Part shown: piece by piece, positions 2,841-47,023 of the stretch
How positions within the stretch are numbered: the first letter of the stretch is position 1
Layout: every line of letters begins with the position of its first letter
Source of the DNA: Deltaproteobacteria bacterium
GTDB taxonomy: Bacteria > Desulfobacterota > Dissulfuribacteria > Dissulfuribacterales > Dissulfuribacteraceae
NCBI GenBank assembly: GCA_026994795.1
Contig: JALWQB010000168.1
Coordinates: forward strand, 1 to 52,616
Length of the DNA stretch: 52,616 bases
Reading direction: 5' to 3'
Notes under the pieces: generated by a model
What the model saw: the letters and a program-made list of their open reading frames with translations, nothing else
What the model was told of the DNA's origin: nothing
Databases searched by the model: none
Translations under genes and position numbers: made by a program

Positions 2841-2842
2841 AT

Positions 2843-3514
2843 ATGAACAAGGAAGAATATACCAAAAGGCTTGAGAGCATAATAAAACAAATGCTTCAGC
2901 CTCTAAAAGAGATACCCTTTAATCTTGTGCTTGAAACAATGACAGGGAGAAAAGTTATTTCATTTGACTTTGCAAAACCTGAACATAATAATATATTAGA
3001 ATTATTAAAGGAAGCTGCATTAAAAGCTGGATATGAAATTAATAAAACTGGAATATTACGCCCAAGACCTAATGAAGTAGGAAATGACATTGAACCTTAT
3101 GTTAGAAGCGCATTAAATTCATTAGAACTGAATGCGGACATTCCAGCAGGACCAAGTGGAAATAAAAAGGCTACAGGCTATCCGGATATCATTTTTTGGT
3201 ATAAAGATCATCCATACTATTTAGAGTGTAAAACTTATAATATCAAAAATATTGCTACGACACAAAGAAGCTTTTATTTCTCTCCGTCTGATGAATTTAA
3301 AGTTATATATGATGCCCCTCATTTTATTTTATCTTTTGAAATCTATGTTGCTGGTGAAAGTGGAAATAAACATATATATAAATGCAAACATTATAAAATC
3401 TTATCAATAGAAACTTTGTCATTAGATATAAAATACGAATTCAATTCAGACAATAAACGTATGTATTCTGGCAAAGATGGGACAGTTATTTTAGCTGAAG
3501 GAAAAATTGAGTAA
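2843..3514 (+). CDS. Type II restriction endonuclease, PD-(D/E)XK fold
   Basis: A 223-residue protein with the catalytic signature PD (residues 114-115), then 12 residues, then E-C-K (128-130), in the context GYPDIIFWYKDHPYYLECK. This is the metal-binding core of PD-(D/E)XK nucleases. An upstream acidic helix (NDIEPYV, residues 81-87) could supply the fourth acidic residue. The gene follows the methyltransferase by 2 bases and shares its AT-rich codon use. The recognition sequence cannot be read from the protein. I do not recognise a named enzyme, but partner and motif make a restriction enzyme the best reading. Confidence 0.78.
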   Translation: MNKEEYTKRLESIIKQMLQPLKEIPFNLVLETMTGRKVISFDFAKPEHNNILELLKEAALKAGYEINKTGILRPRPNEVGNDIEPYVRSALNSLELNADIPAGPSGNKKATGYPDIIFWYKDHPYYLECKTYNIKNIATTQRSFYFSPSDEFKVIYDAPHFILSFEIYVAGESGNKHIYKCKHYKILSIETLSLDIKYEFNSDNKRMYSGKDGTVILAEGKIE

Positions 3515-9549: not shown

Positions 9550-11298
9550 TTAGTCCACAATAAACTTATATGAGAGGCTTTCAAGTATCCTTCCTGCAAT
9601 ATCTCTCCTTACATAAAGCCCGTATTCGCCCTTTGTCGCATCCCTTGGGAGCTTAAATGTAAGCCTGTTGTAATCTTTTACTGACGGTTTTATTGAAATA
9701 GTCGCTCCACCCTCATCTTTTAAATACATTAAAAGCCCATTTACAAAGCCGACTCCTGTTACGGTAATAGTGGTGAGAGTATCGCCCTCTGCCACTGTTG
9801 CAGGGCTGACAGAGCGGATAATTGGTATGGGCGCTACAGAAAGGGCAACTGCCTCATCTGTCTCCATATCATTTACAATGACCCTGACCTCGCCGGTCTG
9901 GCCGTCAAGCGGCACCCTTGCAATGATCTCATTGGCGCTTGATGAGGTTATGGTCAGTATCCCATCGCCTAACAGCGCCATATTCTTCTGGGCGGTTGGG
10001 TCAAAATTTCTCCCTGTAATCGTAACGCTATCGCCAACCAAGACCTCTTCTGGCGAAATAGACTCTATTGATGGAGGGTAAGTAAAAGCAATATCTCCTG
10101 CTGCCTCCTCACCCCCGGTAAATACCTTTACTGTTCCGGAATCAGCATCTGGAACCCTTACAGTCAATTGCGTTGTCGTGGCGTCTATGATGGTTGCGGC
10201 AAAGGCATCCTGGCTCCCTGCATTGAATAGAACATAGTTATTGGTTATGGTCGGGCTAAAATTCCTGCCGACAATTGTAACAATATCTCCTGACTTGCCC
10301 CTTGGGGGCTCAATAGAGGTTACGACAGGGCTAATCGTCACCTCAACAGAAGCGCTTTCCATATCATTGGCAGTGATGGTAAGAGGGCCTGTGTTGCCGT
10401 CAGGGACAAGGACAGACAGCTGCGTCTCGCTTGCTGCTGTAACTGTGCCCCTTATCCCATTAAATACTACAATATTTTTGTTTTTATCTGTAGAAAAGTT
10501 AAAACCGCTTATGGTAAGGGCGCTGCCCGGCGCAACAGTAGTTGCTGATAAAGACTCTATATAAGGCCCAACCTGAAAAGATGCCTCATTTGACTCAACG
10601 CCGCCAACCACAACCTTAACGGCGCCAGTAACAGCTCCATAAGGCACCCATGTCTTTATGAGGTCATTTGTTATCTCCATTATGGTCGCCTCTCTGCCGC
10701 CGATAAATACCTTTACCTGAGACTCCTCCTGTCCAAACCCGTCCCCATATATGGACACTACATCCCCTGTAACCCCTTTACTGGGCGATATATGGTCTAA
10801 GTATGGCCCTTTTACGATAGTAAATTGTGCGCTGCTCTTATCCAGAAGCACCATTGTCTCTGCGTCATATATGGCTGACCTTATTGTATATACGCCCTGA
10901 GATAGTGAAAGGGCATCAGAAAGCCTTATAAAAAAGCTGCCGCTCTTTATGTTAAGCGCCCTAAATGGCCATGAATCAAGTACGAACAACGGATTATCAG
11001 GTGAAAATTCCCCGTTAAGCCCTAAGAAGGCAACGGTATTGCCATCTGGAAAGTCAAGGGATAATGAGACGTTTACAGGGCGCTTCGCCTCAAGCCCGCC
11101 AATCTTTATAATGAGATATATTGGCTCAGGCGCTGTATAAAGTGTCTTTTCAGGCCTTATGTCAATAATGCCCCCATAAGATATAGCAGGAAACAGAAAG
11201 GGAAATAGAAGGGTCAAGATAGCGGCCCAGCGGAGGATAGGAGCTATTGCCTCAAGGATATTTTTTAAGGGGTGAACATTACCACGATGGAAATACAT
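9550..11298 (-). CDS. Exported TIG/IPT-repeat protein
   Basis: A 582-residue protein. A basic N-terminus and one long hydrophobic segment (about residues 21-45) form a signal peptide or anchor. Residues about 50-160 form an Ig-like domain, then five TIG/IPT domains follow in tandem, each opening with a pattern such as IxSISPxxVxxGDxVTITGxNF. TIG domains are Ig-fold units of cell-surface and adhesive proteins. Start at 11298 is chosen because GGAG lies 9 bases upstream; it overlaps the end of the upstream TIG gene by 20 bases, suggesting translational coupling. It closes the surface-protein cluster and faces the ferredoxin terminator. No enzymatic motif is seen; surface structure or adhesion is inferred. 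Confidence 0.82.
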   Translation of the reverse strand: MYFHRGNVHPLKNILEAIAPILRWAAILTLLFPFLFPAISYGGIIDIRPEKTLYTAPEPIYLIIKIGGLEAKRPVNVSLSLDFPDGNTVAFLGLNGEFSPDNPLFVLDSWPFRALNIKSGSFFIRLSDALSLSQGVYTIRSAIYDAETMVLLDKSSAQFTIVKGPYLDHISPSKGVTGDVVSIYGDGFGQEESQVKVFIGGREATIMEITNDLIKTWVPYGAVTGAVKVVVGGVESNEASFQVGPYIESLSATTVAPGSALTISGFNFSTDKNKNIVVFNGIRGTVTAASETQLSVLVPDGNTGPLTITANDMESASVEVTISPVVTSIEPPRGKSGDIVTIVGRNFSPTITNNYVLFNAGSQDAFAATIIDATTTQLTVRVPDADSGTVKVFTGGEEAAGDIAFTYPPSIESISPEEVLVGDSVTITGRNFDPTAQKNMALLGDGILTITSSSANEIIARVPLDGQTGEVRVIVNDMETDEAVALSVAPIPIIRSVSPATVAEGDTLTTITVTGVGFVNGLLMYLKDEGGATISIKPSVKDYNRLTFKLPRDATKGEYGLYVRRDIAGRILESLSYKFIVD

Positions 11299-13939
11299 AT
11301 ACGTAATCTCCAAGCTCAAGGGTATCTTTCCCGTGTAATATGATTATCTTATATTGTCCATCAGGCATAAAAGATGGAACCTTTACATTAAGCATGTTTT
11401 CTCCTTGACTGATAATCTCCATTGCATAGTCTCCAAGATAGACCTTTAGCTGAGATGCATCAGTTGGAAAGCCGCTCCCTGTTATTGTTATCGTATCCTG
11501 AGGGCCTGCCTGCCGCGGATAAAAATTATCTACTGTAATATGCTGTCCTAATACATTAATCCCGCTATCCACATTAAATTCATAGTTTCTATCTATGACC
11601 TTAAGGTCATATCTGCCTTCTGCCATATCTGCAGGGACGGTAAAGATGAGCATATCATCCTTTTGAGAAGTAAGCGTCATCTCCCTGTCACCTAAAAGGC
11701 CCTTAATCTTGCCTGCATCAGACAAAAGGCCGCTTCCAGTTATTGTCAGCATATCGCCCGGCCATAGGCTCTTAGGATAATAGTTATAAAATTCCGCAGG
11801 CGGATTATATATATCTACCCCTTTTTCAAGCTCAAGGGTATCTTTCCCGTATAATATGGTTATCTGATATTGTCCATCAGGTATAAAAGATGGAACCTTT
11901 ACATTAAGCATGTTTTCTTCTTGACTGATAATCTCCATTGCATAGTCCCCAAGATAGACCTTTAGCTGAGATGCATCAGTTGGAAAGCCGCTCCCTGTTA
12001 TCGTTATTGTATCCTGAGGGCCTGCCTGTTGCGGATAGAAGCTGTCTATTACGATATGTTTTCCTAATACGTTAATCCCGCTATCCACATTAAATTCATA
12101 GTTTCTATCTATGACCTTAAGGTCATATCTTCCTTCTGTCATATCTGCAGGGACGGTAAAGATGAGCATATCATCCTTTTGAGAAGTAAGCGTCATCTCC
12201 CTGTCACCTAAAAGGCCCTTAATCTTGCCTGCATCAGACGAGAGGCCGCTTCCAGTTATTGTCAGCATATCGCCCGGCCATAGGCTCTTAGGGTAATAAT
12301 TATAGAATTCCGCAGGTGGATTATATATATCTACCCCCTTTTCAAGCGTCATTTCATGGCCGCCATCAAATATCTTTATATTATAATGACCATCATTAAG
12401 AAATTCCGGAACCTTAAATACAAGCTGATTTGACCCTTGACTTACAAGCTCCATAGCATAACCGTCAATATATCCCTTTACCTTTCCCGCCTCTGTTGAA
12501 AAACTATCCCCCATAATCGTCAGCTTATCACCAGCCTTTAGCTGTGCAGGAGAATAATTATAAATTACAGGATCTATATTAAAGACCTCCATTGCCTCTG
12601 TTACGATTATGCCCTCATATTCCCCGTCAGTAAGCCTTAACTGATATATCCCTGAATTAATCTCTTTAGGCGCCTTGACTATAACCTTATCGCTATTCTG
12701 CTCTACCACTTCCAGCGTATAATCGTCAAGATATGCGCTAATCTGGCCTGATTCTGTTGAAAATCCATCTCCCATAATCATAATTTCGCCTTCTGGCATG
12801 ACTTTCTTGGGGTAATAGTCATATATTGTTGGCGGCGGCCTCTTGATTATCTTAAAATTATAAGGCTCGCCCATAACCCCTTGGCTAACAACCTTGACCT
12901 CCACATCTTCTCCGTCAATCCGCGGCGCATCTACTGTAAGGGTAGTGTTTGTCGCTTCAATGATATTTACAGGGGCGCCGTTAAAATATACGGTATTCCT
13001 TTGAGGCTCAACTGAAAAGTTGCTCCCGGAAATGGTCAGAGTATCCCCCTCCTTAAATTGCTGAGGGGTTACAGAGTCTATATAAGGGGCGCAGAAGAAT
13101 GGAAAATCATTAGAAGAAAGGGAGACTACCTGCGGGATTACCGCCCTGTCTTTTTGCTGGGCCTCTGCCCAGTACGGGACAGTCAAGACTACCCTCAATG
13201 CCCCTGTTATGCACTTATCCCCAAGAGAAAACTTTAAAATTGTCCCATCATCCGCTGCATAATTAACGCCATGCTCAATGCCTCCTGCATACACCTTTAT
13301 ATTGTAATTATCAAGTAGCATGGGGTCAACAAGCCCGGGATTGCCCTTAAGCCCCTTTCCATACACAGTAATCTCTTCATTGCCCTTGCTGTAAGGCGGG
13401 CTCACCCCTTCTATAATCGGCCTTGGGGTATCCACAATTGATGGAAGGAGCTCTGACGCCACAATCCAGAAATCAACTGAGCTTATGTCATCATTAATGC
13501 CTTCACCGCTTATTGAGGCGGATATATTGTATTTTCCTGCTGGAAACTCGGATAAAAAATCCTCTTTTGTGGGGTCATCTGAGATATTTATCTTTTGCGG
13601 GTCAAGGGGGAACAGCGTTGTAAGCGGTATGGATACAAATGGAAAGTCGTCTAATACATTTACATTCTGCGCCTTAAATACAAGGTCAGGCCCAAGATAT
13701 AAGGTTGCGCCGTCAGGTAGCGTCAAAGACACAGTAATTGAGACAGGCGTTCCTGCCTCTACATTTCTAAGATAACCCATTATATTTATGGGCTCTTCAC
13801 TCGGATATCCATATACATAATGTTCAGGGGCAAGGAAGATAATCTCCCCTGCCCCTGATGTTGTGATAAACATGGGCAGCCACATAGATAAGACGATCCA
13901 TAAGAGACTTATCAGTATGGCTGCCCAATTGGTCTTCAT
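11279..13939 (-). CDS. Exported TIG/IPT-repeat protein with a duplicated domain pair
   Basis: An 886-residue protein with a signal peptide (residues 1-30), a beta-rich N-terminal domain (about 31-170) and roughly eight TIG/IPT domains to the C-terminus. The domains share the opening YYPKxLxPGDxLTITGxGxSSDAGKIKG and an inner DGxYxIKIxDG loop. The last four are two nearly identical pairs: residues about 533-704 and 705-877 are copies, seen also in the DNA as a 516-bp direct repeat. An AAAGG site precedes the ATG, and the upstream cohesin/dockerin gene ends 18 bases before it, so it belongs to that operon. No catalytic motif; a rod-like surface protein is the likely product. Confidence 0.82.
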   Translation of the reverse strand: MKTNWAAILISLLWIVLSMWLPMFITTSGAGEIIFLAPEHYVYGYPSEEPINIMGYLRNVEAGTPVSITVSLTLPDGATLYLGPDLVFKAQNVNVLDDFPFVSIPLTTLFPLDPQKINISDDPTKEDFLSEFPAGKYNISASISGEGINDDISSVDFWIVASELLPSIVDTPRPIIEGVSPPYSKGNEEITVYGKGLKGNPGLVDPMLLDNYNIKVYAGGIEHGVNYAADDGTILKFSLGDKCITGALRVVLTVPYWAEAQQKDRAVIPQVVSLSSNDFPFFCAPYIDSVTPQQFKEGDTLTISGSNFSVEPQRNTVYFNGAPVNIIEATNTTLTVDAPRIDGEDVEVKVVSQGVMGEPYNFKIIKRPPPTIYDYYPKKVMPEGEIMIMGDGFSTESGQISAYLDDYTLEVVEQNSDKVIVKAPKEINSGIYQLRLTDGEYEGIIVTEAMEVFNIDPVIYNYSPAQLKAGDKLTIMGDSFSTEAGKVKGYIDGYAMELVSQGSNQLVFKVPEFLNDGHYNIKIFDGGHEMTLEKGVDIYNPPAEFYNYYPKSLWPGDMLTITGSGLSSDAGKIKGLLGDREMTLTSQKDDMLIFTVPADMTEGRYDLKVIDRNYEFNVDSGINVLGKHIVIDSFYPQQAGPQDTITITGSGFPTDASQLKVYLGDYAMEIISQEENMLNVKVPSFIPDGQYQITILYGKDTLELEKGVDIYNPPAEFYNYYPKSLWPGDMLTITGSGLLSDAGKIKGLLGDREMTLTSQKDDMLIFTVPADMAEGRYDLKVIDRNYEFNVDSGINVLGQHITVDNFYPRQAGPQDTITITGSGFPTDASQLKVYLGDYAMEIISQGENMLNVKVPSFMPDGQYKIIILHGKDTLELGDYVYVFPSW
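11311..12342. repeat. 516-bp tandem direct repeat (two copies) within the TIG gene
   Basis: Copy one spans 11311-11826 and copy two 11827-12342, with an exact period of 516 bases (172 codons, two TIG domains). By eye they differ at about 30-40 positions. The differences are scattered and the reading frame is kept, so the duplication is recent but not brand new. Confidence 0.9.
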
Positions 13940-13957
13940 CTGCCTTTATCTTTTATC

Positions 13958-16900
13958 CTATTCGCAGCTTCCTCCATTGGTCACATAGCTCTGCATGACC
14001 TGTGTGGCATCAGATACGGTAACAAACCCGTCATTATTGAGGTCAGCTACCTTTGCCTCATCATCCTCAAGCTCATACAGCCCGAGCGTATTATAGAAGA
14101 TATTAAGGGCATCTTGAGGCGTAAGAAGGCCGCTGCCGTCAACATCACCCGGACATACTATCTTAAATGTCCCAGCAGTAAGGGTAACGCCGCTTATATC
14201 ATCAACGCCTGTCCCATCCACAGGGGTAATGCTTACAGTCGTGCCTGCAGTAATGTCATCTGCAATGGCGAACTTTAAAGACAGCAAGGTCTCAAGCTCA
14301 CCTTCTGGTATTGCATTGGCCTCTGAGTCTGCATAGCCAGCAATACGAGCTGTGCCTGATGATACTTCCCTGCCAGAGACCTGCCAGCTTGCAAGACCAT
14401 CAGATTTTTCTACGCCAAGGAATGTAAGCTTTGTGCTGTCATAGCTCACATCAAGACCAAATGCATCCACCTTTGTACTGCTAACACCTGCTATAATCAA
14501 TGGGACTGTCACTTCAGACCCTGCCTTTCCTATCCTATTGCTGACAGATACGCCTGTTGCCATAGAGTTCACTACTACAGATGCAGAGCCGGTATTGCCG
14601 TCATTGTCTGTCACCTCTACAGTCATCGTGAACTTATCAGAGCTGCCTGCTGGAGACGTCCATGTAGGCGTCTGAGAGGTAGTATCGTCAAATGTGCCGC
14701 TGTCAGAGCCTGACTTTGGCGTAGCAGACCATGAATACTGATATGGGCTCTCTCCACCTGTTACAGACACTGACAGGTTAGTAGTTCCTCCAAGCTCTAC
14801 CACACTTGGCGATGCGCTTACAGAGATAGACAGAGACTGAGGCCCTGTTAAGGTGAGGAATGACCTTGCCAACATGCCCTTTCCACCTGATGAATCTCCA
14901 TAAGTGCTTGTCTCACCAGCAAGGACAAAGCTATTACTGCTTCCTACATACTGTGCATCAATAGCTATTGAGTCATAAGTGAGGTCAAGCTTATCAGTAA
15001 GGGTCGGTGTTGTAGGACTGCTTACATTTATTACCCTTATAGTGCTGTTATCGCCAGCAGTGCTTGCAAATATATATCGTTTGTCGCTATTGCTCTGGTC
15101 ATACATGAATGCAATATCTGTAATTGTCCCTATAGCGCTGTCTGTAAAGGCCTTCTTCTTTACAATAGGTGAAGAAGGCGTGCTTATGTCCACAATTGTA
15201 AGGGCAGTGCCGCTTCCAGTGTTTACAAGTATAAAGAGGTAATATGTTGAGCTTCCATATGCGCTGTCACTATGGTCCCTGCTGCTTGCAAGCTTAAGGG
15301 CATAGCCGCCAATATCAGTCTTAGAAAGTTGCGCCGCAATTGATGGATTGCTCCATTGATTAAAGTCATCGCTTGAGCTTGACTGACAATCCAATACCAA
15401 TAAACCGCTATCGCCATAAGCCACATATACATAGGCATCTGAGCCAGACCTATAGTCTATAAGCACATCCTCTGCCACAGCGCCGCTTCCGCTAAGGGCG
15501 AACTGTTTGTCAATAGTGAATTCTGAAGCAGTTGTGGTTATAGAGGATAATATTACGCCTCCGTCACCGTCTGCAACTGCAACATAATACTTACTATCAC
15601 TGGAGCTATAATAGGCTGATATTCCTTTAGCTGTGCCAGGAGTATCATAAGATACTAATGCCCTATAACCAGCGCCACCATCATACCTCCTTGCATAAGT
15701 GGAGTTGCCTGATGCATCAGTATTCATTATTAACATCTTTTTAATGCCTGCCTCTCCTGCTGCAATAAATACTACATGGTCATCTACACTGTTATAACTA
15801 TTAGCTCCCAATGGTACCACATCCATATCATAGGCTGTTCCAGCTTTATTACTACCTGTCCCATAAGCAGTTGACTTACTGCTCCATGCCAAATCAAAGC
15901 CCAGTTTTCCTTCATGTGGAATCTCACTGCTCGCATTAAATGAGCCGGTTTCCCTCCATACTGCAGGGGCATGGTTAGTACTTGTGTTATAATTTACATC
16001 ATATACCCTGATCCCGCCTGCCTGATCTAATACAATAGTCGTATAATTAGAGCCATCATCATCTACTATCTCTATTGCAGCAGGGGCAACTGACTCATCC
16101 CACTGCCATATAAGCTTAAGCTCTCTATTGCTTGAACTGCTCATGGATGTTCCGTTAATCTCCTTAAATCCACCTGCTCCATCAGCAAGATAGAGATTAT
16201 AGATGCTAGATGCAGTAGAGTTACCTCCTATAAAAAATACATTTTCTGCAACACCTGTTGTATCAAGACTACCCATAAAGGATAAAGATAAAGTATCATT
16301 ACCACCATCAACCTCAAAAAGATACAATCCACTGTCTCCTGCAGCTGCAGCAAGCCATCCATTTACATCTCCATTACTTGTCGCATCTGAGCCAGCATGA
16401 TCAACATAATAGACTGACTTAAAGTCAACCTCTCCAACAATAGATGTAGAGATATCAGAATATTCCATTAAGTTAAATGAGCTTGAGTAGTAATCAAATT
16501 CAAAGGCATATATGCCTCCTGCTGTTGCCACAAATACAAGCGCCTCATCATTTTCTGCATCCTTTCTGCTTGTTGTATTGCCTGTATCAATATCGCTATC
16601 AGAATAGACAAATACGTCTCTCGTTGTAGATAACACGCTTCCAGTAGCCTTATTAGATACTGCATCGTCAGTAGTGGAATTCCCGACCTTTGTATAGTTG
16701 GCATCTCCTACCCATACAGTTGTGCCGCCAACTACATAAAGATAATCTTTACTTGAGCCATCAATACTTGCGCTATCTGAATATACTGCAGTTGGATCAA
16801 ATGTAAGGACTTCATAATCCCAGTCTGGCTCTCCACTAGATGTATCAAACTTATTAGTTGAACCATCAAACTCAATAGTAAAGATGGCGCCTGCATTTGT

Positions 16901-17620
16901 AGTGTCCTGTTTTTTGGCTATTACCGCTATATATGCCTTGGTATTGGATGTATCGGTTTTAAACACCGTAAGGTCAGCTGGGTTAAAGACTGCCGTTTGG
17001 CTGTCAGGGTTACAATCACCGGGCTGACATATTAAGACACTATCTTCATAGTCTAATGCGCCGGAATCACGATTTAGACTATAAGCGTATAGATATTTTC
17101 CTGAATAGAAAAAGACCTCATCATGATCATTATCACCATTTAAGTCAGCTGCCCTCACATGTGTTACCACAAAATTCCTTATCTCGCTTCCAGCATCATA
17201 GTAGTCTTCTCTGTCAAGCATCTTGCCTGTTTCATTGCCAACCAAAGTGGCATTTATAGCTTTCTCTAATGTACAATAGTTTGAATCTGCGACACCTCTA
17301 TAATTAAAAGTTGCAATACCGCCAGCGCCAAGCGCAAGGACTAATTCTGGGGTACTAGCACCGCCTCTTACTCCTGGAGTGGTAAAGTTACAAGAAAATG
17401 TCCCATTAACCGCTGCGCCGTCATAGACATAAGACAGCAATCCTGTCCTGTTATAGCCCCGATACTCAGGGGATTTAGAGTATGACCTATCCTTTGGGGT
17501 CTCTTTAAGCGACCCCGGTGTTGCCTTTGCCCACGCCCCTGTAGGGCAGAAGGCAAGGCCTGTAACTGCCATAAAGGCAATTACCCAAAACAATACCTTT
17601 AATCTCATAGCATTTCTCAT
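13958..17620 (-). CDS. Exported beta-propeller/PKD/cohesin/dockerin protein
   Basis: A 1220-residue exported protein. Residues 1-32 form a signal peptide ending in GAWA. About residues 60-925 contain many LVIVD-like and YVYVAYGDSGLLVL-type beta-propeller strands rich in Asp, Ser and Gly. A PKD-like Ig domain (about 930-1018) has the SPYQYSWSATP and TVEVTDNDGNTGSA motifs. A cohesin-like domain follows (about 1021-1154, VPLIIAGVSSTKVDAFGLDVSYD). The end (1155-1220) is a type I-like dockerin with two calcium-loop repeats, DVDGSG and DLNNDG, each followed by a helix. A cohesin and a dockerin in one chain could let the protein bind itself or its neighbour. A strong AAGGAGG site fixes the start. 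No catalytic glycosidase domain is seen. Confidence 0.85.
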   Translation of the reverse strand: MRNAMRLKVLFWVIAFMAVTGLAFCPTGAWAKATPGSLKETPKDRSYSKSPEYRGYNRTGLLSYVYDGAAVNGTFSCNFTTPGVRGGASTPELVLALGAGGIATFNYRGVADSNYCTLEKAINATLVGNETGKMLDREDYYDAGSEIRNFVVTHVRAADLNGDNDHDEVFFYSGKYLYAYSLNRDSGALDYEDSVLICQPGDCNPDSQTAVFNPADLTVFKTDTSNTKAYIAVIAKKQDTTNAGAIFTIEFDGSTNKFDTSSGEPDWDYEVLTFDPTAVYSDSASIDGSSKDYLYVVGGTTVWVGDANYTKVGNSTTDDAVSNKATGSVLSTTRDVFVYSDSDIDTGNTTSRKDAENDEALVFVATAGGIYAFEFDYYSSSFNLMEYSDISTSIVGEVDFKSVYYVDHAGSDATSNGDVNGWLAAAAGDSGLYLFEVDGGNDTLSLSFMGSLDTTGVAENVFFIGGNSTASSIYNLYLADGAGGFKEINGTSMSSSSNRELKLIWQWDESVAPAAIEIVDDDGSNYTTIVLDQAGGIRVYDVNYNTSTNHAPAVWRETGSFNASSEIPHEGKLGFDLAWSSKSTAYGTGSNKAGTAYDMDVVPLGANSYNSVDDHVVFIAAGEAGIKKMLIMNTDASGNSTYARRYDGGAGYRALVSYDTPGTAKGISAYYSSSDSKYYVAVADGDGGVILSSITTTASEFTIDKQFALSGSGAVAEDVLIDYRSGSDAYVYVAYGDSGLLVLDCQSSSSDDFNQWSNPSIAAQLSKTDIGGYALKLASSRDHSDSAYGSSTYYLFILVNTGSGTALTIVDISTPSSPIVKKKAFTDSAIGTITDIAFMYDQSNSDKRYIFASTAGDNSTIRVINVSSPTTPTLTDKLDLTYDSIAIDAQYVGSSNSFVLAGETSTYGDSSGGKGMLARSFLTLTGPQSLSISVSASPSVVELGGTTNLSVSVTGGESPYQYSWSATPKSGSDSGTFDDTTSQTPTWTSPAGSSDKFTMTVEVTDNDGNTGSASVVVNSMATGVSVSNRIGKAGSEVTVPLIIAGVSSTKVDAFGLDVSYDSTKLTFLGVEKSDGLASWQVSGREVSSGTARIAGYADSEANAIPEGELETLLSLKFAIADDITAGTTVSITPVDGTGVDDISGVTLTAGTFKIVCPGDVDGSGLLTPQDALNIFYNTLGLYELEDDEAKVADLNNDGFVTVSDATQVMQSYVTNGGSCE

Positions 17621-17637
17621 GGATGCACCTCCTTATT

Positions 17638-18372
17638 TTATTCAGTAATTGTTACTGGCACATCTATAACCTCAGCGCCGCCGTCATTATATGCAATCTT
17701 CACGCCAAGATTATAGACTCCAGCAGGAAGCTCTATGTCTGGAAATGCCAAGTAAAAGAGATCATTCAATAAATCATAATGCCAAGAGCTTCCCGTAAAT
17801 ATTGGCCCAAGCACGTCAGCGCCATTGTATTGAATAGATGCGCTCTGAATTTTTGACACATCCGGCACTGCCATAAAGAGGGTTGCCTTTTTGCCTGCAA
17901 CGCTCCACACAACAGGGGCCTTTACCTCACCAAGTATGCCTGGTTTTTTGGGAAAATCAACACCATTAAGCCCATCTCTTGCTACAGAGGCCAGATAAGG
18001 CCCTTTGCCAGTGGGCTTAAACCTTAAAGGCACTGTTACAACCTTGTCTTTTGAGGCAGGATTTGCCATAAAGCCTACCCTTACAAGGCACCCATCATTT
18101 TCAGCCTGCAACATACCACTTAAACCTGTTTTGTCTATGCCCAAAAATTCCATTCTATCACATGCATAGGCCAGCCCAAAGCCAAATGCCTTGACAGGGC
18201 CGGTGCTATCTGAAACCACTGTTGCCCTTACCACGATGTCATTGCCTTCATAGGCCATATTTGAGACATCAATTCTTGCCCCAAAGGCGGCTATCGGGGC
18301 AATTACCAAGACCATTAAGAGCATCAAAATCGCCTTTTTTATGGACGCAAAAGTCCTCTTTTTATAGATCAT
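17638..18372 (-). CDS. Exported cohesin-domain protein
   Basis: A 244-residue protein with a signal peptide (residues 1-31) and a cohesin-like domain (about 33-150). The domain shares the pattern AFGFGLAYxxDRMEFLGIDK with the cohesin of the downstream protein (AFGLDVSYDSTKLTFLGVEK). The C-terminal part (about 150-244) is another beta-rich Ig-like domain with an inner hydrophobic repeat. A perfect GGAGG site lies a few bases before the ATG. The next gene, which carries a dockerin, begins 17 bases after this stop. An interaction between the two is a fair hypothesis. No enzyme motif. Confidence 0.75.
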   Translation of the reverse strand: MIYKKRTFASIKKAILMLLMVLVIAPIAAFGARIDVSNMAYEGNDIVVRATVVSDSTGPVKAFGFGLAYACDRMEFLGIDKTGLSGMLQAENDGCLVRVGFMANPASKDKVVTVPLRFKPTGKGPYLASVARDGLNGVDFPKKPGILGEVKAPVVWSVAGKKATLFMAVPDVSKIQSASIQYNGADVLGPIFTGSSWHYDLLNDLFYLAFPDIELPAGVYNLGVKIAYNDGGAEVIDVPVTITE

Positions 18373-18438
18373 AATGTCCTCCTTTCACAATATGTTTATA
18401 TTCGGGGGTTAATAGATTGCTTTTTTAAAGATGTCGCC

Positions 18439-18543
18439 TCACAAAAGGAGCAAAAATTCAAAGAGATCAGGCGGTCTGACCCTCACCCCAATACGATATG
18501 TCTTTAATGCATGGTGTGTTATAGAAACTTTTACTGATTTCAT
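18439..18543 (-). CDS. Putative 34-residue microprotein
   Basis: A 34-codon frame starting at 18543 and ending with TGA at 18439-18441, preceded by a strong AAGGAGG site 9 bases upstream. The product is basic and then hydrophobic (VRPPDLFEFLLLL at the end). It begins 4 bases after the stop of the Cys-rich microprotein, and that gene's last codons hold its Shine-Dalgarno. No family recognised. The site is good enough for translation, but conservation is unknown and it could be a leader peptide. Confidence 0.35.
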   Translation of the reverse strand: MKSVKVSITHHALKTYRIGVRVRPPDLFEFLLLL

Positions 18544-18547
18544 TTTC

Positions 18548-18679
18548 TTAATCCTCCTTGATTATAATGTGGCATTCCATGCCTTTTTTACAAGTTCGCT
18601 TGTTCAAACAAATGACACATACCTCTCTTTTAAAGGCAGTATCACCTCCTTTTTTTCTTTTTTGTTTTCTGTTTATCAT
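18548..18679 (-). CDS. Putative 43-residue Cys-rich microprotein
   Basis: A 43-codon frame from ATG at 18679 to TAA at 18548-18550. The N-terminus is very basic (NRKQKRKK), and the C-terminal half has four cysteines as C-x2-C-x5-C-x5-C (CVICLNKRTCKKGMEC), a spacing that could bind one zinc ion. AAGGG lies about 9 bases before the ATG. The frame also contains the perfect AAAGGAGGTGAT anti-16S complement, which may instead serve a different start or regulatory role. It sits between two surface-protein genes. The cysteine pattern is unlikely to be chance, but no homologue is known to me. Confidence 0.45.
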   Translation of the reverse strand: MINRKQKRKKGGDTAFKREVCVICLNKRTCKKGMECHIIIKED

Positions 18680-18749
18680 ATCGGCATCCCTTATCTTAAA
18701 CTTAAAATAAATTACCTTGTTTTTTTATCTTTTTTATAACCCATCTATG

Positions 18750-21700
18750 TTATTGGATTTTCAGAGTCATAGTATCTTGTGCAAGCAGATCCTTCTCAAG
18801 TTCAGGGTTTCCGTCCGGCACAGTAAGAGAGAATATGAACTGGATTGTGCCGCTATAATCCCCCTCTGGTAGCTTAAAGAACGGTATGCGCACACCATTC
18901 ATACTGCCCCAGAGAGCAGTTGTTAATTTATAGTGTTCACCTGTTACCATGTTAGTAACATCAAGCGGGAGCCCCCCGTCAAATGACATATCAAATGTAA
19001 AGCTAATATCGCCATTATATGGGAGGAATACGCCTGTTACGTATAGATCGCCAAGCAGCCCTTCAGTAGTAACGTCAAGCCACAGCTCTATCCATACCTC
19101 ATCGCCGGGGGACACCCTGTATCCTATGCCTAATCCATCCTTTGTCCTTGGATAGACCTTAAGGTCAGCATCATAATAAATACCTTCTATTAATTCATAT
19201 ACAGATATGTTATAAAACTCTTGAAGCGTCTTCCCGGAGGAATCTATGAGCACAAAGTCAAATATGCCGCCCTGAGTTGTTGTCTCTATGACCTTAGTTG
19301 CGTTATAATCCTTAAGCGGAAATATTTGCCCTGGATTCTGCCACAGGTAAACGCCTTCTTTTTCGTATCTGCCAACCTGACCCATCCCTACCTGTATTTG
19401 CGATGACATCTCAGCCTCATCATTTAAGGGAGCTGCATAGCCTGTATCCTCTCCTGATATGAGTAAGGCAGGGATTATCTCGTCATCATACTGAAACTTT
19501 CCAAGCGTAATTGAATTAAGCCCCTTATCAAGGTGATAGCTCTCTAAAAGCACAGGTATATTGTCAGTAGTCTCTAATATATCCACTCCATCATCCATAA
19601 GTAGCGCTGCAAATGTTTTTCCTCTAACTGAAAACATCTTTATCTCCTTTATCTCATCCGGCGCCTCATAGCTCTTTCCAACCTCAAGGCACCCGCTTCC
19701 ATCTTTTTGTCTGTTTAATCCGCAGTGGTCTTTCACTGAAACAAGCTCCTTTGTCCCTTTGACCATTCCTATCATAGCCCCTGCAACATCAATGCCAGAA
19801 GGAACAAAGCCTATATCGCCTTCTACCTTTACAAAGGGAACTGTTGGGTCTTTGAGGTCAACTGAGATGGTTTTGCCCCCTTCTTCAATCACCATAAGGC
19901 GATTTATTCCCTTGAACATGAAAGATTTTCCTGAAAGAGAGACAGGAGGGGCAAGATAGGCGCTGCACCCGTCTTCATTGCAGGATATGGAATAGATATA
20001 GAGGCCGCTTTGGGTAAGGGCCGCAAGCCAGTTATACCCGCTTTCAAATGAGCTGATAGGTGATGGGAATTTTATGTCTTTTATCTTCTCCACCTTATCA
20101 GCGGCCTCCTTGTCGTATTGATACAGGCCAATGGTTGTAGGGGATTCCTGTATCGCAATAAGATATGACTGACCATAATCGATGTTAATGCCCCCATCTT
20201 TTATAACAGGAGGCCTTTTTGTAATTATAAAATCGCCATATTCTTTATTGATTGAAAATGAGTTTTTCACTGAAAGACCATTCTGTCTTGAGTCAAATGA
20301 AAGTATGAAAAATTTTCCCTCTGCTTCTCCAAAAAACCTGTCAACAACAGGATAATAGGTTGTATTATAGAATTTTTGGCCTGTGGGATAAGAAAAATTC
20401 TCTACCCTTTCCTCTTCTTCCATTATAAAGAAGGCATATTCTACAGGGGCAGAAGAGCGCAATCTTTCTGAAGATATGCTGTATCTTCCTGCGGATTCTA
20501 TTGCTATTGAATATGACATGCCAGGGTCTATGCCCCTTAGGAAAAACCTGCCTGCCTCACCCTTTGACACCTCTATGTCAGGGTCTGAAGGGGTAGTAAC
20601 ATAAAGTGGAGAGGCAGGATTAAAGTCTTCCCTTTTGATTGCAATCGCCCTTATCTCCCTTAACGGCTCAGATTCCCCCTTTAATGCCTCATAGTATTTT
20701 AATGCCTCAGGTAATGTTACTGTCCAGTAAAGGTCAGTGGCAGGGGTTATTTTAATGTTTTTTATCCTTAAAGACATAAAACCCTTACTTTCTATCTCTA
20801 TAGAGTATGTGGCTGGAGCCATTGAGTCTATAGTTATAGGGCCATTTCCGGCGCTTGACCGTGAAGATATTGCCCTTCCCTCAGCGTCTATAAGCTTTGC
20901 CCGCGCCTTTAGCAGATTGCCTGCAGCGTCTCTGACCTCTATCCTTACAGAAGGAAGTCTCACAGGCGCGTGCTTAGAGACAGCGGCTGAGGCCTTTGGG
21001 GCATCAGGGTCAAAAAAAGATATGTTAGTATCTTGATTAAATAAATACGCCTCAAGCCCTACATTGTCTGAATTTATATATATGTCCTTTATTATGACGT
21101 TTTTTATATTGGATTGGGTAGTTTGAGATATCCATGCGACATACTGGCCATATTGTATCGGCGATAGGCTATATGCGCCGTCATTTGAGGTCAAACCGCT
21201 GGCGACGAGGCCTCCCTGAAGGTCATATATCTCTATAGAGGCATTGGGTAAGGGCGCTCCGTCAATTGCGCTAAAGACAGTGATATACAGGTTCCCTGTT
21301 AATGTAAGCTGTGCGCCTGTCTGAGGAGACTCACATGAATTAACCTTGGCATCAAGCGATATCGGGATAGGCTTTACCTTGAGCTCAAAAGAATGGGCAA
21401 ATCCAAGCGCTATTGCGTCTTCAAATACTACCCCCTCATATCCTGTATCAAGGACAGTTATCTTGACCCTTGCCGGCTCTGAATATGAAAAGGTTATCGC
21501 GCCGCTGTCGTCTGTAGTCTTGGTTACAGTCTCACCTGTCCTTATGTCTTCTACTGTTACAGGGAACCTTGAGAGTATAAGGCCCTTATCGTCTTTTACG
21601 CTTATGGAAATGGAGGCGGTATCATTTGCCCCATTAGAGGCCAGACCCGTAACAGATGTCGCCCCCTTGGAAAAATAGAATGTATATTCCTTTGTCATGC

Positions 21701-24080
21701 CGTTTATAGGCTGCAATGGCCTTATCTCTAATGCCTCTTTCCATGTATCTATGATGTTAAGGGCGCCTGTATCGCCTTCGCCTCCACCTTGAGCGGCTGT
21801 CTGTGAGGCAACCTCATTGATTATCATAAGGCCCATTACAGGGACATTTGCAAGGTCATTTAAAACAAACCTCCCGTCAGCATCTGTTGCGCCTGTATAA
21901 AGCTCCTGTCCATTGGTAAGCCTGATGAAACTCAGGCCAAGCCCTGACATATCCGCCGTAAGGTCAAAGGGGTTTTCTATGTTAATGACGATATCGCTGC
22001 AGACCTTATTCTCCTGAGCTACATATTCCCCGCCCTCATTCCATGTCTTTACTATTGATGGAATAAGTTGTTTTAACGGGATATTAATGCCCTTTGTATC
22101 TCCAAGCGTTAACTGGACGGGCACGCTCACCGCCTGATAGCCACCTGCCTCAACTACAACATCATACTGGCCGGGGTAAAGGTCTTCAAAACTGCCTTCC
22201 CCAAGGCTGTTAAGATACTTTGCAGAGACTGTCTCACCGCCCCTCCTTACAGATGCCTTAACGCCCTTTATGGGATTTTGATAAAGGTCTTTTACCGTTA
22301 AGGTTATAGAAGGGAGCCCCTTTTCCCCCTGACCTTCCGTCTCCTGAGTAGCGGAAACATCCTCCACCACCTTCTTCTCCTGAAGGGATGCGGCGTCAGG
22401 CGCGCCAAAGACTGTCAATCTGTTTAAAACCCCTTCCTGAAGGCTGTTTATGGGATGTATGTCAAACACCTCATAAGATGTCCCATCTGGCCCTGTATGT
22501 TCATTAAATAGCAGATTAAGATAATACTGGCTGTTATCAACTGGAGAAAATCTGGCAGACCCCCTTATGTCCGTATATCGTATAACCTCTTCTCCTGTTG
22601 ACCTCTTTTTAAGCCCTGCCTCTATATTGGCTATCGGCTCCCCTTCAGCCGTAAGCCTCTTTAAGGTTACCTCAAGCCCTGTTGCAACTGGTTTGGATGC
22701 TATGATATCAAGCTCAAGGGTTGCAGCCTCAATCTCCATAGGCCCTATGATCTGAGAATAAAGCCCATCATCCTCCTTATAGGCCACCCAATAGGTCTTA
22801 AGACCCTTTCTCAGCATATTAATATAGCAGCACCCATTGGATTTAGTCTTACAGACGGAAGAAGTGCGGTATTCCCTGACTACTGCATCCTTAACCGTAT
22901 GTTTAAGCGCTGTATCAGAATATACGCATATCAGGGCGTCTGAATAGTCATAGTAAAGCCCGGGCAATATCTCACGGGGCACAAGGCCAAGCTCAACAGT
23001 AACCTTTTCATTATCAGGAAGCTCTACTGCTGACATTGCAGAGTCATAACCGTCTTTTTGCGCCTCAACACTGTATTGCCCGCCCTCAAGCCCTGTAAAT
23101 TCGCAGTAGCCGTTTTTGTCAGTAAGGCATGAGGCTATTAGGAGCTCGTCCTGAGAGAGGATTACAGTTGCGCTAAGTATCGGGGCGCCAGTAAGGTCGT
23201 CCCTTACGGTAACGCCTATAACCCCTGTTATAAGGACAATAACATCTTCTTTTACGCCAAATACAGACCACTTCACATCTACAGAGCCATCAGGCGCCCT
23301 TGAGATGGCATAAACGATATGTATGCCCTGAGTAAATTGAAGGGTAATATCGTTCTCCAAGGCCAGAAGGTAGCCTGATGGTTTATTGACAATCTTATAT
23401 GCATCCCACCATTCAATGGTAATGTTGCCTTGAGCCTCTGCCGTGGCGCTTAAAAGGATGTCTTCTTCTTCATATCTCTTTTCATTTTCAGGAGATACAA
23501 TAGAAAGGCCAAGGTCGGCCGCCCCATCTTCCTTCCAGAAGACAACGCCGCCTCCGCCTGAATAGTCCATAAGCTCGCCGCCTTCAACCTGACCTGTTAT
23601 GACAGGCAGCAGGACAAATCCCTCTTCTGGGGCATCTTTTAAGACAATGCCCACCTTCATTACAGCCTTTACGCCCTGCGTATTTACACGTTGATTTAAT
23701 GCAAATGATACCCTGAGTATCTTGAGATAAGGGCGCGCCTTGTCGTATTCTTTATCCAATACGGCAGCGCCGTAAAAGAATGCCCCATAAGTAGTTATAA
23801 GCTCTCCAGCATAAGATTCTACCTGATTCCCCTGCATGTAGGCAGGGTCTATATAGCGGGTATCAATGATGACATCTACCGCGCCTGATTGAATGCCCTC
23901 GCCCTTTATGTAGAGGGACACCTCCAGCTTCTCATTTACGCTTCCCGTAACAGGCTCTAAAAAATATATCCCCTGTCCTGCCGCCGCCTCATTTTGCCAA
24001 AAAAATGACTGAACTGCCCAAAATGCCATTAAAAAGGCGACACCTGCAACAAGCCTTAAAAGCGCCCCTCTTTCCTTCAT
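18750..24080 (-). CDS. Giant exported transthyretin-like/cohesin-like surface protein
   Basis: A 1776-residue protein. Residues 1-35 form a signal peptide. The first domain (about 36-180; GIYFLEPVTGSVNEKLEVSLYI) looks cohesin-like. At least five carboxypeptidase-regulatory/transthyretin-like Ig domains follow, each with a DxxGxPIxxAxV...T(D/N)xxGxYxFxxLxxGxY pattern (about 290-370, 590-665, 830-900, 925-990, 1045-1110). About 1230-1600 resemble a beta-propeller, and the end is another beta-rich module. Start 24080 is chosen because GGAGGT lies 9 bases upstream; ATG 24098 has no site. The gene begins 33 bases after flgE, so it is probably co-transcribed with the hook genes. No catalytic motif; a large surface or filament-associated protein is inferred. 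Confidence 0.8.
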   Translation of the reverse strand: MKERGALLRLVAGVAFLMAFWAVQSFFWQNEAAAGQGIYFLEPVTGSVNEKLEVSLYIKGEGIQSGAVDVIIDTRYIDPAYMQGNQVESYAGELITTYGAFFYGAAVLDKEYDKARPYLKILRVSFALNQRVNTQGVKAVMKVGIVLKDAPEEGFVLLPVITGQVEGGELMDYSGGGGVVFWKEDGAADLGLSIVSPENEKRYEEEDILLSATAEAQGNITIEWWDAYKIVNKPSGYLLALENDITLQFTQGIHIVYAISRAPDGSVDVKWSVFGVKEDVIVLITGVIGVTVRDDLTGAPILSATVILSQDELLIASCLTDKNGYCEFTGLEGGQYSVEAQKDGYDSAMSAVELPDNEKVTVELGLVPREILPGLYYDYSDALICVYSDTALKHTVKDAVVREYRTSSVCKTKSNGCCYINMLRKGLKTYWVAYKEDDGLYSQIIGPMEIEAATLELDIIASKPVATGLEVTLKRLTAEGEPIANIEAGLKKRSTGEEVIRYTDIRGSARFSPVDNSQYYLNLLFNEHTGPDGTSYEVFDIHPINSLQEGVLNRLTVFGAPDAASLQEKKVVEDVSATQETEGQGEKGLPSITLTVKDLYQNPIKGVKASVRRGGETVSAKYLNSLGEGSFEDLYPGQYDVVVEAGGYQAVSVPVQLTLGDTKGINIPLKQLIPSIVKTWNEGGEYVAQENKVCSDIVINIENPFDLTADMSGLGLSFIRLTNGQELYTGATDADGRFVLNDLANVPVMGLMIINEVASQTAAQGGGEGDTGALNIIDTWKEALEIRPLQPINGMTKEYTFYFSKGATSVTGLASNGANDTASISISVKDDKGLILSRFPVTVEDIRTGETVTKTTDDSGAITFSYSEPARVKITVLDTGYEGVVFEDAIALGFAHSFELKVKPIPISLDAKVNSCESPQTGAQLTLTGNLYITVFSAIDGAPLPNASIEIYDLQGGLVASGLTSNDGAYSLSPIQYGQYVAWISQTTQSNIKNVIIKDIYINSDNVGLEAYLFNQDTNISFFDPDAPKASAAVSKHAPVRLPSVRIEVRDAAGNLLKARAKLIDAEGRAISSRSSAGNGPITIDSMAPATYSIEIESKGFMSLRIKNIKITPATDLYWTVTLPEALKYYEALKGESEPLREIRAIAIKREDFNPASPLYVTTPSDPDIEVSKGEAGRFFLRGIDPGMSYSIAIESAGRYSISSERLRSSAPVEYAFFIMEEEERVENFSYPTGQKFYNTTYYPVVDRFFGEAEGKFFILSFDSRQNGLSVKNSFSINKEYGDFIITKRPPVIKDGGINIDYGQSYLIAIQESPTTIGLYQYDKEAADKVEKIKDIKFPSPISSFESGYNWLAALTQSGLYIYSISCNEDGCSAYLAPPVSLSGKSFMFKGINRLMVIEEGGKTISVDLKDPTVPFVKVEGDIGFVPSGIDVAGAMIGMVKGTKELVSVKDHCGLNRQKDGSGCLEVGKSYEAPDEIKEIKMFSVRGKTFAALLMDDGVDILETTDNIPVLLESYHLDKGLNSITLGKFQYDDEIIPALLISGEDTGYAAPLNDEAEMSSQIQVGMGQVGRYEKEGVYLWQNPGQIFPLKDYNATKVIETTTQGGIFDFVLIDSSGKTLQEFYNISVYELIEGIYYDADLKVYPRTKDGLGIGYRVSPGDEVWIELWLDVTTEGLLGDLYVTGVFLPYNGDISFTFDMSFDGGLPLDVTNMVTGEHYKLTTALWGSMNGVRIPFFKLPEGDYSGTIQFIFSLTVPDGNPELEKDLLAQDTMTLKIQ

Positions 24081-24113: not shown

Positions 24114-25613
24114 CTAACGCTTCATATTCAAGAGCTCATTCATCATGTCGTCAGTTGTGGTAATGACCCTTGAATTCGCCTGAAACGCCCTCTGCGTAGT
24201 AATGAGCTTTACAAATTCCGTGCCAAGATCAACTGTTGACTGTTCAAGGGAGTTAGACGCAATTGCGCCAAGGCCATTGGTGCGGGGTTGGCCAGTAATG
24301 GGCGCGCCGCTGGCAGTTGTTTCACGGAAAAGATTTCCGCCCTCTTTTCCAAGCGAATGTGGGGCATTAAAGCGCGCAAGCGCAACCTGAGCAAGGGCGA
24401 TGATCCTGCCGTTTGAATAGTGGCCTGAAATAGTGCCTTCTGAGTCAACATTCAGGGATTCAAGAAAGCCCGGGCCAAAACCGTCTTGATCATAGAATAT
24501 TGTGCTTGAGCGGTTGGCGTATTGCGTTGAGCTTATTGACTCAAGGCTCCAGCTATTTACAGTCGGCGGCGAGGTTGTCCTGTCAATGTCCGCCGCCGCC
24601 CCAAAATCAAACTCTATTATCTGCGCTGATATATCCTCATTGGTCTCAGGGTCAGTAGTGCCGGTGGCGGGGATAAAGAATGCCACAAGCTGCGGATAAT
24701 TGTGGTCGCCATAGGTAACAGACTCCCATGAGCCGTCCTTAAAGCGCTCAATAGGGGCAGTTGAATCCCCGGGCGCCCCATATATCGACTCAATCTGGCC
24801 TTGAGGGGTAAACTTTAGGTATCCTCTCATAAGCATACCAGCCTCATTTGTGCCAGCAGCAGCGCTTTTATCCTCATCAGGGTCCATTGTTACCAGAAAT
24901 TCCCACTCTCTGTCATTGTCTGTCCTGTCAAAATAGACTGTAATATCATGGGTATTTCCAAGGCTGTCATAAATATTGAGGCTTGTTCGGTATTCATAAT
25001 GGACATTTGCAGTAAGGGTGCCTGCTGACTTTCCATCAGTAGAGACCCAGTCGTCCCAGAGGGTAGCAGGGCTTACAGGGCCTGTTGTCCTGCTGTCCAG
25101 ATTGACGCTAAGGGTTATCTGTTTTGTAGCGACAGGGGGCGAGGTATTTGTAATCTGTATATCCTTTATAGAGCCTACTATTTCAGCGCTGCCGTCAGGC
25201 TGCACCTCCATATCCCAGCCCTGAACCCTGAGGCCTGCAGGATTCACCATATAGCCCTCCTGATCTATAAGAAATTGACCTGCCCTTGTATAATACATGC
25301 TGTTTTCTATATTGGGGTCAGTGACCATAAAGAAGCCATTTCCTGCTATGGCAAGGTCAGTGGGCGATGTCGTGCTCTCAAATGAGCCCTGAATAAAGAG
25401 AGGCGAGACATCTGACATGGATGAGCCGCGTCCAACCTGAGATGTGCCGCTTGCCGTATTGATATTGAGCGCCATTATGTCCTGAAATGTAGCCCTTGCC
25501 CCTTTATAGGCGGTGGTATTCATGTTCGCCACATTATCGCCAATGACCTGCATGGCCGTCCCCATGTTTGCAAGACCGCTGACGCCTGAGTAAAGAGAGC
25601 TTGTGAGTCCCAT
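24114..25613 (-). CDS. flgE: Flagellar hook protein FlgE
   Basis: A 499-residue hook protein, longer than the roughly 400 of enterobacteria. The N-terminal rod/hook motif is clear (SLYSGVSGLANMGTAMQVIGDNVANMNTTAYKG), followed by the GNGFFMV and YTRAGQF core motifs. The C-terminus has the D0 pattern NSLEQSTVDLGTEFVKLITTQRAFQANSRVITTTDDMMNELLN. It polymerises into the flexible hook that joins rod and filament. An AAGGAGGT site precedes the ATG. It lies between flgD and the giant surface gene on the same strand. Confidence 0.95.
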   Translation of the reverse strand: MGLTSSLYSGVSGLANMGTAMQVIGDNVANMNTTAYKGARATFQDIMALNINTASGTSQVGRGSSMSDVSPLFIQGSFESTTSPTDLAIAGNGFFMVTDPNIENSMYYTRAGQFLIDQEGYMVNPAGLRVQGWDMEVQPDGSAEIVGSIKDIQITNTSPPVATKQITLSVNLDSRTTGPVSPATLWDDWVSTDGKSAGTLTANVHYEYRTSLNIYDSLGNTHDITVYFDRTDNDREWEFLVTMDPDEDKSAAAGTNEAGMLMRGYLKFTPQGQIESIYGAPGDSTAPIERFKDGSWESVTYGDHNYPQLVAFFIPATGTTDPETNEDISAQIIEFDFGAAADIDRTTSPPTVNSWSLESISSTQYANRSSTIFYDQDGFGPGFLESLNVDSEGTISGHYSNGRIIALAQVALARFNAPHSLGKEGGNLFRETTASGAPITGQPRTNGLGAIASNSLEQSTVDLGTEFVKLITTQRAFQANSRVITTTDDMMNELLNMKR

Positions 25614-25711: not shown

Positions 25712-26392
25712 TTATCTTCCAAATACGCTTTCAATTTCTTCAAGCCCTGCTGTCTCTTCAGTATTCATGGTAAGTTTTATAGAGCCGTCTTCAGACAGGT
25801 TAAGCCCCTTGACAAGGCCCATTGTAAGGACTGATGTCTCCACATCATTACCCTCAATGTCTCTTCCTATTGCGGATATGGTATATGACCCCTCTGGCAT
25901 TTCCTCACCGGCATCATTGAGGCCATCCCACTTAAATGCCTTTTCTCCACTTTCAATCTCTCCAATGTCAAGGCTCCTTATGACCCTGCCAAGCGGGTCC
26001 TTTATGGTAATGATGGTTGAGGCGGTATTGTCTTCAGGCCTTATCTTAAATGTAGGCGCCCCTTCCTCAGTAAGCTCAAACTTATTCCCCTCATAGGCCA
26101 CTTCCTTTCCTATAAAGGATACTGAGTTCATAAGGCTGCGCTGTTGGGTCGCCTCCACAAGTTTATCCATTGCCTCATTGCTCTTATACATGAGGTCAAC
26201 CATGTTAAACTGGGCCATTTGAGATGCCATATCAGCGCTTTCCATAGGGTTCATAGGGTCCTGATATTGAAGCTGCTTTACAAACAGCTCCATAAAGTCG
26301 TCTCTATCCAGTTGCGTCCTGTCGCTTGAAGGCTTATTAAGCTCTTCCATGCCCTTAGAAAGGTCAGCTGAATTAACAGTGCTTATAAACAT
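25712..26392 (-). CDS. flgD: Flagellar hook capping protein FlgD
   Basis: A 226-residue hook cap protein. The conserved N-terminal motif is DRDDFMELFVKQLQYQDPMNPMESADMASQMAQF (residues 29-62). The C-terminal half (about 90-200) is an Ig-like FlgD domain with AFKWDGLNDAGEEMPEGSYTISA. It sits at the tip of the growing hook and lets FlgE subunits assemble. AGGGG lies 8 bases before the ATG. It is encoded between fliK and flgE, the usual fliK-flgD-flgE order of many bacteria, and probably shares the sigma-54 promoter upstream of fliK. Confidence 0.95.
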   Translation of the reverse strand: MFISTVNSADLSKGMEELNKPSSDRTQLDRDDFMELFVKQLQYQDPMNPMESADMASQMAQFNMVDLMYKSNEAMDKLVEATQQRSLMNSVSFIGKEVAYEGNKFELTEEGAPTFKIRPEDNTASTIITIKDPLGRVIRSLDIGEIESGEKAFKWDGLNDAGEEMPEGSYTISAIGRDIEGNDVETSVLTMGLVKGLNLSEDGSIKLTMNTEETAGLEEIESVFGR

Positions 26393-28893: not shown

Positions 28894-28950
28894 GCCCTTA
28901 ACTCCTGTCTTAACCAAAGACTATGGCGTTTTGAAAGCAAAATATGGCTC

Positions 28951-28966
28951 TGCAATCTGAGTGCCA
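28951..28966 (-). promoter_or_regulatory. Sigma-54 (RpoN) promoter of fliK-flgD-flgE
   Basis: On the minus strand the 16 bases TGGCACTCAGATTGCA match the -24/-12 consensus TGGCAC-N5-TTGCA at every fixed position. The -12 GC lies about 60 bases before the fliK ATG at 28893. RpoN control of hook genes is standard in many polarly flagellated bacteria. Confidence 0.85.
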
Positions 28967-31885: not shown

Positions 31886-31891
31886 CCTTTT

Positions 31892-46995: not shown

Positions 46996-47023
46996 TAAAG
47001 TTTCCTGACTGAAGAGACGATAA
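46996..47023 (+). promoter_or_regulatory. Candidate sigma-28 (FliA) promoter of flagellin copy 2
   Basis: TAAAGTTT (46996-47003) is followed after 12 bases by GACGATAA (47016-47023). The FliA consensus is TAAAGTTT-N11-GCCGATAA, so the boxes match at 8/8 and 7/8 but the spacing is one base long. It lies 135 bases before the flagellin ATG. Confidence 0.6.

Follow-up and report, generated by a model that had tools for sequence, protein, structure and literature searches.

The clostridial cellulosome shares type I-like cohesin and dockerin folds with intact calcium loops with the gene set described here, but it has a tandem-cohesin scaffoldin, enzymes, and a carbohydrate-binding module, none of which is found in the set. 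Outside cellulosomes, archaea and other organisms are known to possess cohesin-dockerin proteins, whose function is unclear (PMC9012536), and binding between archaeal dockerins and cohesins has been reported in work cited there. Archaeoglobus fulgidus, a non-cellulolytic microbe, likewise has few such modules, in secreted, non-cellulosomal proteins, whereas the present locus has three neighboring cohesin proteins, including a propeller-PKD-cohesin-dockerin protein, together with TIG-repeat rods and flagellar-class promoters. The ANME archaea also use these modules extracellularly and without cellulolysis, although they differ in having many dockerins and scaffoldin-like multi-cohesin proteins, and a flagellar link is not described for them in PMC9012536.

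The regulatory parallel is Campylobacter, which has an RpoN-dependent middle class and a FliA-dependent late class of flagellar genes, with flgE dependent on RpoN and one flagellin in each class, and whose late class includes non-motility proteins, the Feds (PMC12445086, PMC11187230). The Feds are secreted via the flagellar export apparatus, whereas the proteins considered here carry Sec-type signals and cohesin-dockerin modules. FlgT/MotX/MotY, PflA/PflB, and the FlaA sheath of spirochaetes are Sec exported and expressed with the flagellum. We know of no Sec-exported flagellar accessory among them that uses cohesin-dockerin contacts, and we saw no sequence relation between them and the set. 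In the titles and abstracts covered, which represent part of the literature, no published link of a dockerin or cohesin to a flagellum or a flagellar regulon was found.

Gene set and domain composition

The original prediction placed five exported proteins in a row behind the hook gene flgE. In the window, that is, the whole 52,616-nucleotide stretch analyzed (contig 168 of the genome), all five open reading frames are indeed present on the minus strand, where fliK-flgD-flgE is followed by TTR, COH, PROP, TIG1, and TIG2 (Table 1). TTR starts at the ATG at 24080 (1776 aa) or at 24098, and the distance of only 33 bp from the flgE stop codon to the ATG at 24080 leaves no room for a terminator. 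The gap 5' of COH measures 377 bp and contains a sigma-28-type promoter of its own, so the five genes need not form a single transcript.

Table 1. Positions of the gene set, its promoters, and the flagellar features used for comparison
Feature	Position	Strand	Remarks
TTR	18750..24080	-	Directly 3' of flgE; homologue adjoins flgE in 6/6 carriers
N-terminal domain of TTR	23511..23978	-	Cohesin fold by structure prediction
COH	17638..18372	-	244 aa, exported; cohesin-fold domain and second beta domain
Sigma-28-type promoter of COH	18678..18705	-	TTAAGTTT-N12-GCCGATAT; 2 mismatches; 333 bp upstream of COH
PROP	13958..17620	-	Exported; beta-propeller (LVIVD), PKD, cohesin, dockerin
Cohesin domain of PROP	14159..14551	-	The genome's only Pfam cohesin
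Type I dockerin of PROP	13991..14152	-	The genome's only Pfam dockerin; both F-hand calcium loops intact
TIG1	11279..13939	-	Exported TIG-repeat protein; 7 Pfam TIG stretches
TIG2	9550..11319	-	Exported TIG-repeat protein; 5 TIG stretches; overlaps TIG1 end
flgE	24114..25613	-	Hook protein
flgD	25712..26392	-	Hook cap
fliK	26458..28917	-	Hook length control
Sigma-54 promoter	28951..28966	-	TGGCACTCAGATTGCA; perfect; upstream of fliK-flgD-flgE-TTR; 0/500 shuffles
Sigma-28-type promoter before flagellin 2	46996..47023	+	TAAAGTTT-N12-GACGATAA; positive control in the window
Flagellin 2	47158-49593		Downstream of sigma-28-type promoter 46996..47023
Sigma-54-type site before flagellin 1	43877..43892	+	1 mismatch; comparison in the window
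Flagellin 1	44003-46435		Downstream of sigma-54-type site 43877..43892

Pfam searches recovered all domains of the predicted propeller-PKD-cohesin-dockerin protein in PROP, namely, the LVIVD propeller repeat, PKD, a cohesin (E value of 4e-9), and a dockerin_1 match that was weak in the whole-protein scan (E value of 0.002) and above the cutoff in the genome scan (25.5 bits). Both proteins described as TIG-repeat rods, TIG1 and TIG2, have TIG repeats (E values of 2e-39 and 3e-77). In the PROP dockerin, loop positions 1, 3, 5, and 12 are canonical in both calcium loops of every one of the seven PROP copies, none of which deviates from the PQD motif in loop 1. PROP is tandemly duplicated in the relatives G001 and G002 (L049:5635-12423). 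Both tandem copies include a cohesin and a dockerin, and their dockerins differ in loop 1, a difference that could reflect distinct specificities.

The cohesins that the original prediction had proposed for COH and for the first domain of TTR gave no Pfam match. Since a sequence search of COH against solved structures also returned no match, fold prediction was required. AlphaFold2 models of COH and of the N-terminal domain of TTR, built from 5 and 6 sequences, respectively, had pLDDT values of 85 and 83, and the best PDB matches by Foldseek were cohesins in both cases (all of the first 9 for COH and all of the first 50 for the TTR domain, where A. fulgidus 2xdh ranked second). Along similar lines, a profile of COH alone picked up the cohesin domain of PROP (E value of 2.5e-5). 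These models support a cohesin fold in COH and in the first domain of TTR, and cohesin-fold domains would thus sit one per protein in three consecutive genes.

Behind this domain, TTR contains an Ig-like domain, at least five transthyretin/CarboxypepD_reg repeats (five CarboxypepD_reg stretches by Pfam), a propeller-like region recognized by eye, and a C-terminal beta domain. An apparent T9SS-type C-terminal signal in TTR fell at residues ~950 to 1004 of 1782 and not at the C terminus and was discarded as a false match to the Ig-like domain. In TIG1, a 172-aa unit of two TIG domains is tandemly duplicated (12334-11819 and 11818-11303; 93% DNA identity); TIG1 of relatives is about half as long, and the enlargement is lineage specific. 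TIG2 is the best conserved of the five proteins (47 to 57% identity).

All five proteins start with a Sec-type signal, as judged by eye, and in none of them did we see a lipobox, a C-terminal membrane anchor, or a sorting signal, nor was a dedicated outer-membrane export gene for the set seen. Secretins, GspD sized in several genomes, are present in carriers and non-carriers of the set alike, and in G015 only one was found; a dedicated type II secretion system tied to the set was therefore not supportable.

Promoters of the set

In order to evaluate the sigma-28-type sites, the pattern TAAAGTTT-N12-GCCGATAA was searched with up to 2 mismatches, and the expectation was taken from a Markov simulation. 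There were four matches in ~653 kb versus 0.2 expected, in a search that began upstream of the cassette genes and whose later background comprised all loci analyzed and is enriched in flagellar regions. One of them precedes flagellin 2, and the other three precede COH in the window (-333) and in the carriers G007 (-81) and G041 (-54). In G007, COH and PROP lie far from the flagellar genes, yet the sigma-28-type site is still in front of COH. The same pattern with a spacer of 11 and up to 2 mismatches gave no match, and a flagellin of the putative Dissulfurimicrobium genome (see below) has the N12 spacing too, with 3 mismatches. The leader of COH in the window also resembles that of flagellin 2 (alignment score of 94, with a maximum of 63 for shuffled sequences), which could stem from a copied promoter region or from similar ribosome-binding elements. 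No promoter of its own was recognized before COH in G001, G002, or G015; in G001 and G002, COH needs no extra promoter because it follows TTR by 44 bp or less.

Sites resembling the sigma-54 promoter of the window were found before fliK in G001, G002, G007, G009, and G006. A perfect sigma-54 site stands in front of the unlinked TIG1-TIG2 pair of G007, and one with 2 mismatches stands in front of TIG2 in G015. Two further candidates were set aside: a sigma-54-like site between flgE and TTR in G015 was not counted, as it falls within a tandem repeat broken up by N, and one before TIG1 of G041, with almost no leader, was treated as weak. The two flagellins of the window differ in apparent promoter class, flagellin 1 being preceded by a sigma-54-type site and flagellin 2 by a sigma-28-type site with N12 spacing.

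As far as the sequences tell, promoters of flagellar classes are thus present upstream of genes of the set. They are stronger grounds for the expected shared expression with flagellar genes than the co-orientation with flgE from which it had been proposed, and they include unlinked loci. A common transcript with flgD and flgE, on the other hand, does not necessarily follow, given that COH has its own sigma-28-type promoter here and in two relatives. The expected continuity behind flgE was therefore seen in part: flgE and TTR are not separated by a terminator, but COH is preceded by a further promoter, which is again of flagellar type.

Distribution and inheritance

We analyzed 46 genomes of one order, which is probably the Dissulfuribacterales because G006, which apparently lacks the set, fits Dissulfurimicrobium hydrothermale; we infer this putative identity from the positions of flgE and the flagellin, which agree with the locus tags in PMC8780430. 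TTR, COH, and TIG2 were confined to the same 6 of the 46 genomes (the three members of family f1, the two of f6, and a single genome of f9). Among the relatives searched, PROP occurred in those same six carriers, as a contig-end fragment only in G015, and reading the loci individually revealed TIG1 in all six. The remainder of a 395-genome sample of the phylum lacked COH, save for two short, weak matches in one genome. Conservation of the neighborhood, which the original prediction had implied, was borne out by gene order, with TTR directly 3' of flgE in every carrier, across three families. G001 has the contiguous order flgD-flgE-TTR-COH-PROP-PROP-TIG1-TIG2, and G002 and G041 have the same one, interrupted by contig ends. 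In the remaining two carriers, the genes are scattered, over three places in G007 and five contigs in G015; co-occurrence despite this scattering argues for one functional unit, on the basis of six carrier genomes, a small and non-independent sample.

Several families include non-carriers in which secD-like, murA, and moaA genes come after flgE. In G001 and G002 of f1, the cassette and one transporter gene sit within this junction, which is otherwise intact in non-carriers and so indicates an insertion. Within genus g22, the set is present in G041 and missing from G040 and G042. TIG2 of G041 adjoins a transaldolase gene that belongs to the genus itself (92% identity; tree support of 100/99), and in the congeners this gene lies on the flgE contig, so contamination of G041 was rejected. 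FlgD of G041 sides weakly with its family (support of 84/89), but its FlgE clusters with those of the carriers (98/94). Conservation of FlgE is also relatively higher between carriers, with a median distance ratio to transaldolase of 0.79 versus about 1.2 for other pairs. Since no FlgE residue invariant in carriers yet absent elsewhere, which would be a candidate contact surface, was found, the safe reading is linked inheritance or general constraint and not proven contact.

Other arrangements were noted at these loci. In G015, the flgE-TTR gap is 660 bp long and filled by a tandem repeat with a masked stretch (L054:2380-2840). The non-carriers G040 and G042 encode proteins of 1351 and 442 aa beside fliK (L128:4801-10447). 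Some non-carriers of family f9 (G038, G040, G042, and G044) have 6 to 9 dockerins each, an indication that the order has another, separate dockerin system.

A proposed flagellar accessory complex and its alternatives

Joint inheritance, together with flagellar-type promoters even away from flagellar genes, makes it probable that these bacteria build a cohesin-dockerin accessory structure along with the flagellum and not a cellulose-digesting machine. Co-regulation of the set with flagella is very likely, judging from the promoters. That the proteins are joined by cohesin-dockerin contacts is likely, given module families of known chemistry. On balance, we read the cluster as an accessory complex of the flagellar regulon held together by non-cellulosomal contacts of this kind. 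Physical attachment of the complex to the flagellum is a tentative proposal. If true, it would be, as far as we know, the first case of a cohesin-dockerin structure that forms part of a flagellum.

The similarity of the cohesin and dockerin of PROP to type I clostridial modules could suggest a small cellulosome or another polysaccharide-degrading complex. However, a whole-genome domain scan (2.29 Mb in 275 contigs) returned one cohesin and one dockerin, both within PROP, which has no catalytic domain. The single Pfam cohesin leaves the genome without a scaffoldin with multiple cohesins, and the cluster contains no carbohydrate-binding module or glycoside hydrolase domain. A cellulosome is therefore excluded, in agreement with the predicted absence of cellulase and scaffold genes, and the probability of any such degradative complex is close to nil. 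It is also very improbable that a surface-protein operon landed behind flgE by chance and is merely read through. The insertion into an otherwise intact junction in G001 and G002 is what such an event would leave behind, but the flagellar-type promoters that precede genes of the set even away from flagellar loci, the TTR-flgE linkage kept across three families, and the perfect co-occurrence of scattered members largely refute this explanation.

The set might instead encode a secreted scaffold for adhesion or biofilm formation, co-expressed with flagella and separate from them, as a coat for swimming cells that reach a surface or mineral. TIG, PKD, propeller, and CarboxypepD_reg domains are frequent in surface proteins, and the comparison of FlgE sequences gave no residue-level link to the hook. 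The Feds show that genes of the late flagellar class can encode non-structural proteins (PMC12445086, PMC11187230). We nevertheless consider an adhesion scaffold unlikely, since TTR adjoins flgE in all carriers, the flgE type and not flgD tracks the cassette in G041, and neither an anchor nor an adhesin-specific domain was identified in the set. A disk- or ring-like scaffold in the periplasm around the motor, analogous to those of high-torque motors, would agree with the Sec signals and the lack of lipoprotein, membrane-anchor, or sorting signals (by eye), the periplasm being the default destination of Sec export, and with hook-stage sigma-54 expression of TTR and, in G007, of TIG1-TIG2. We regard it as decidedly improbable, however, given that a 1776-aa multidomain rod is long for the periplasm, that these domain types are commoner outside the cell, that the GspD-sized secretins of several genomes could export the proteins, and that COH has a promoter of the late, filament class.

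For the flagellar accessory complex, the mechanism that the sequences support best is an assembly in two stages, coupled to the flagellum. At the hook stage, the sigma-54 promoter before fliK would express TTR through its operon with flgE, and TIG1-TIG2, where they stand alone (G007), would also be expressed then from their own sigma-54 site. At the filament stage, the flagellin-like sigma-28-type promoter would express COH and, behind it, PROP. All five proteins would leave the cytoplasm by Sec, and the calcium-loaded dockerin of PROP might plug into the cohesin of TTR, COH, or another PROP, so that the three could form a chain or lattice, which the TIG rods may brace or cap. In swimming cells, the structure would be located at or around the hook or base of the flagellum, or else on the cell surface close to it. 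A more specific model is rather doubtful, namely, a lattice of TTR, COH, PROP, and TIG proteins carried on the hook or base itself, with calcium-dependent plug-and-socket contacts and built in two steps by the hook- and filament-stage sigma factors. There are three candidate locations: linkage of TTR to flgE points to the hook or base, the domain types point to the cell surface, and the Sec signal, with no further export signal, points to the periplasm.

Non-cellulosomal cohesin and dockerin modules have been catalogued for years without a known role. The promoters tie one such set to the building of the flagellum, and this tie, which includes unlinked loci, gives it a concrete cellular context. 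The set suggests a novel type of flagellar accessory in an apparently sulfur-disproportionating lineage; flagella or pili have been proposed to help sulfur-disproportionating bacteria handle solid sulfur (PMC8780430).

Other features of the window

The filament cluster (39572-52588), 15 kb from the hook genes, encodes two large flagellins (810 and 811 aa) and also holds two fliS genes, fliD, flaG, and a gene for a 1449-aa Maf/MptE-like TPR protein, possibly a flagellin glycosyltransferase. A 36-bp tandem repeat (5.1 copies; 97% match) lies at 31706-31888 between galT-like and GH57-like genes. At 1545-3514, a low-GC pair of genes resembling a DNA methyltransferase and a restriction endonuclease is inserted amid other genes.
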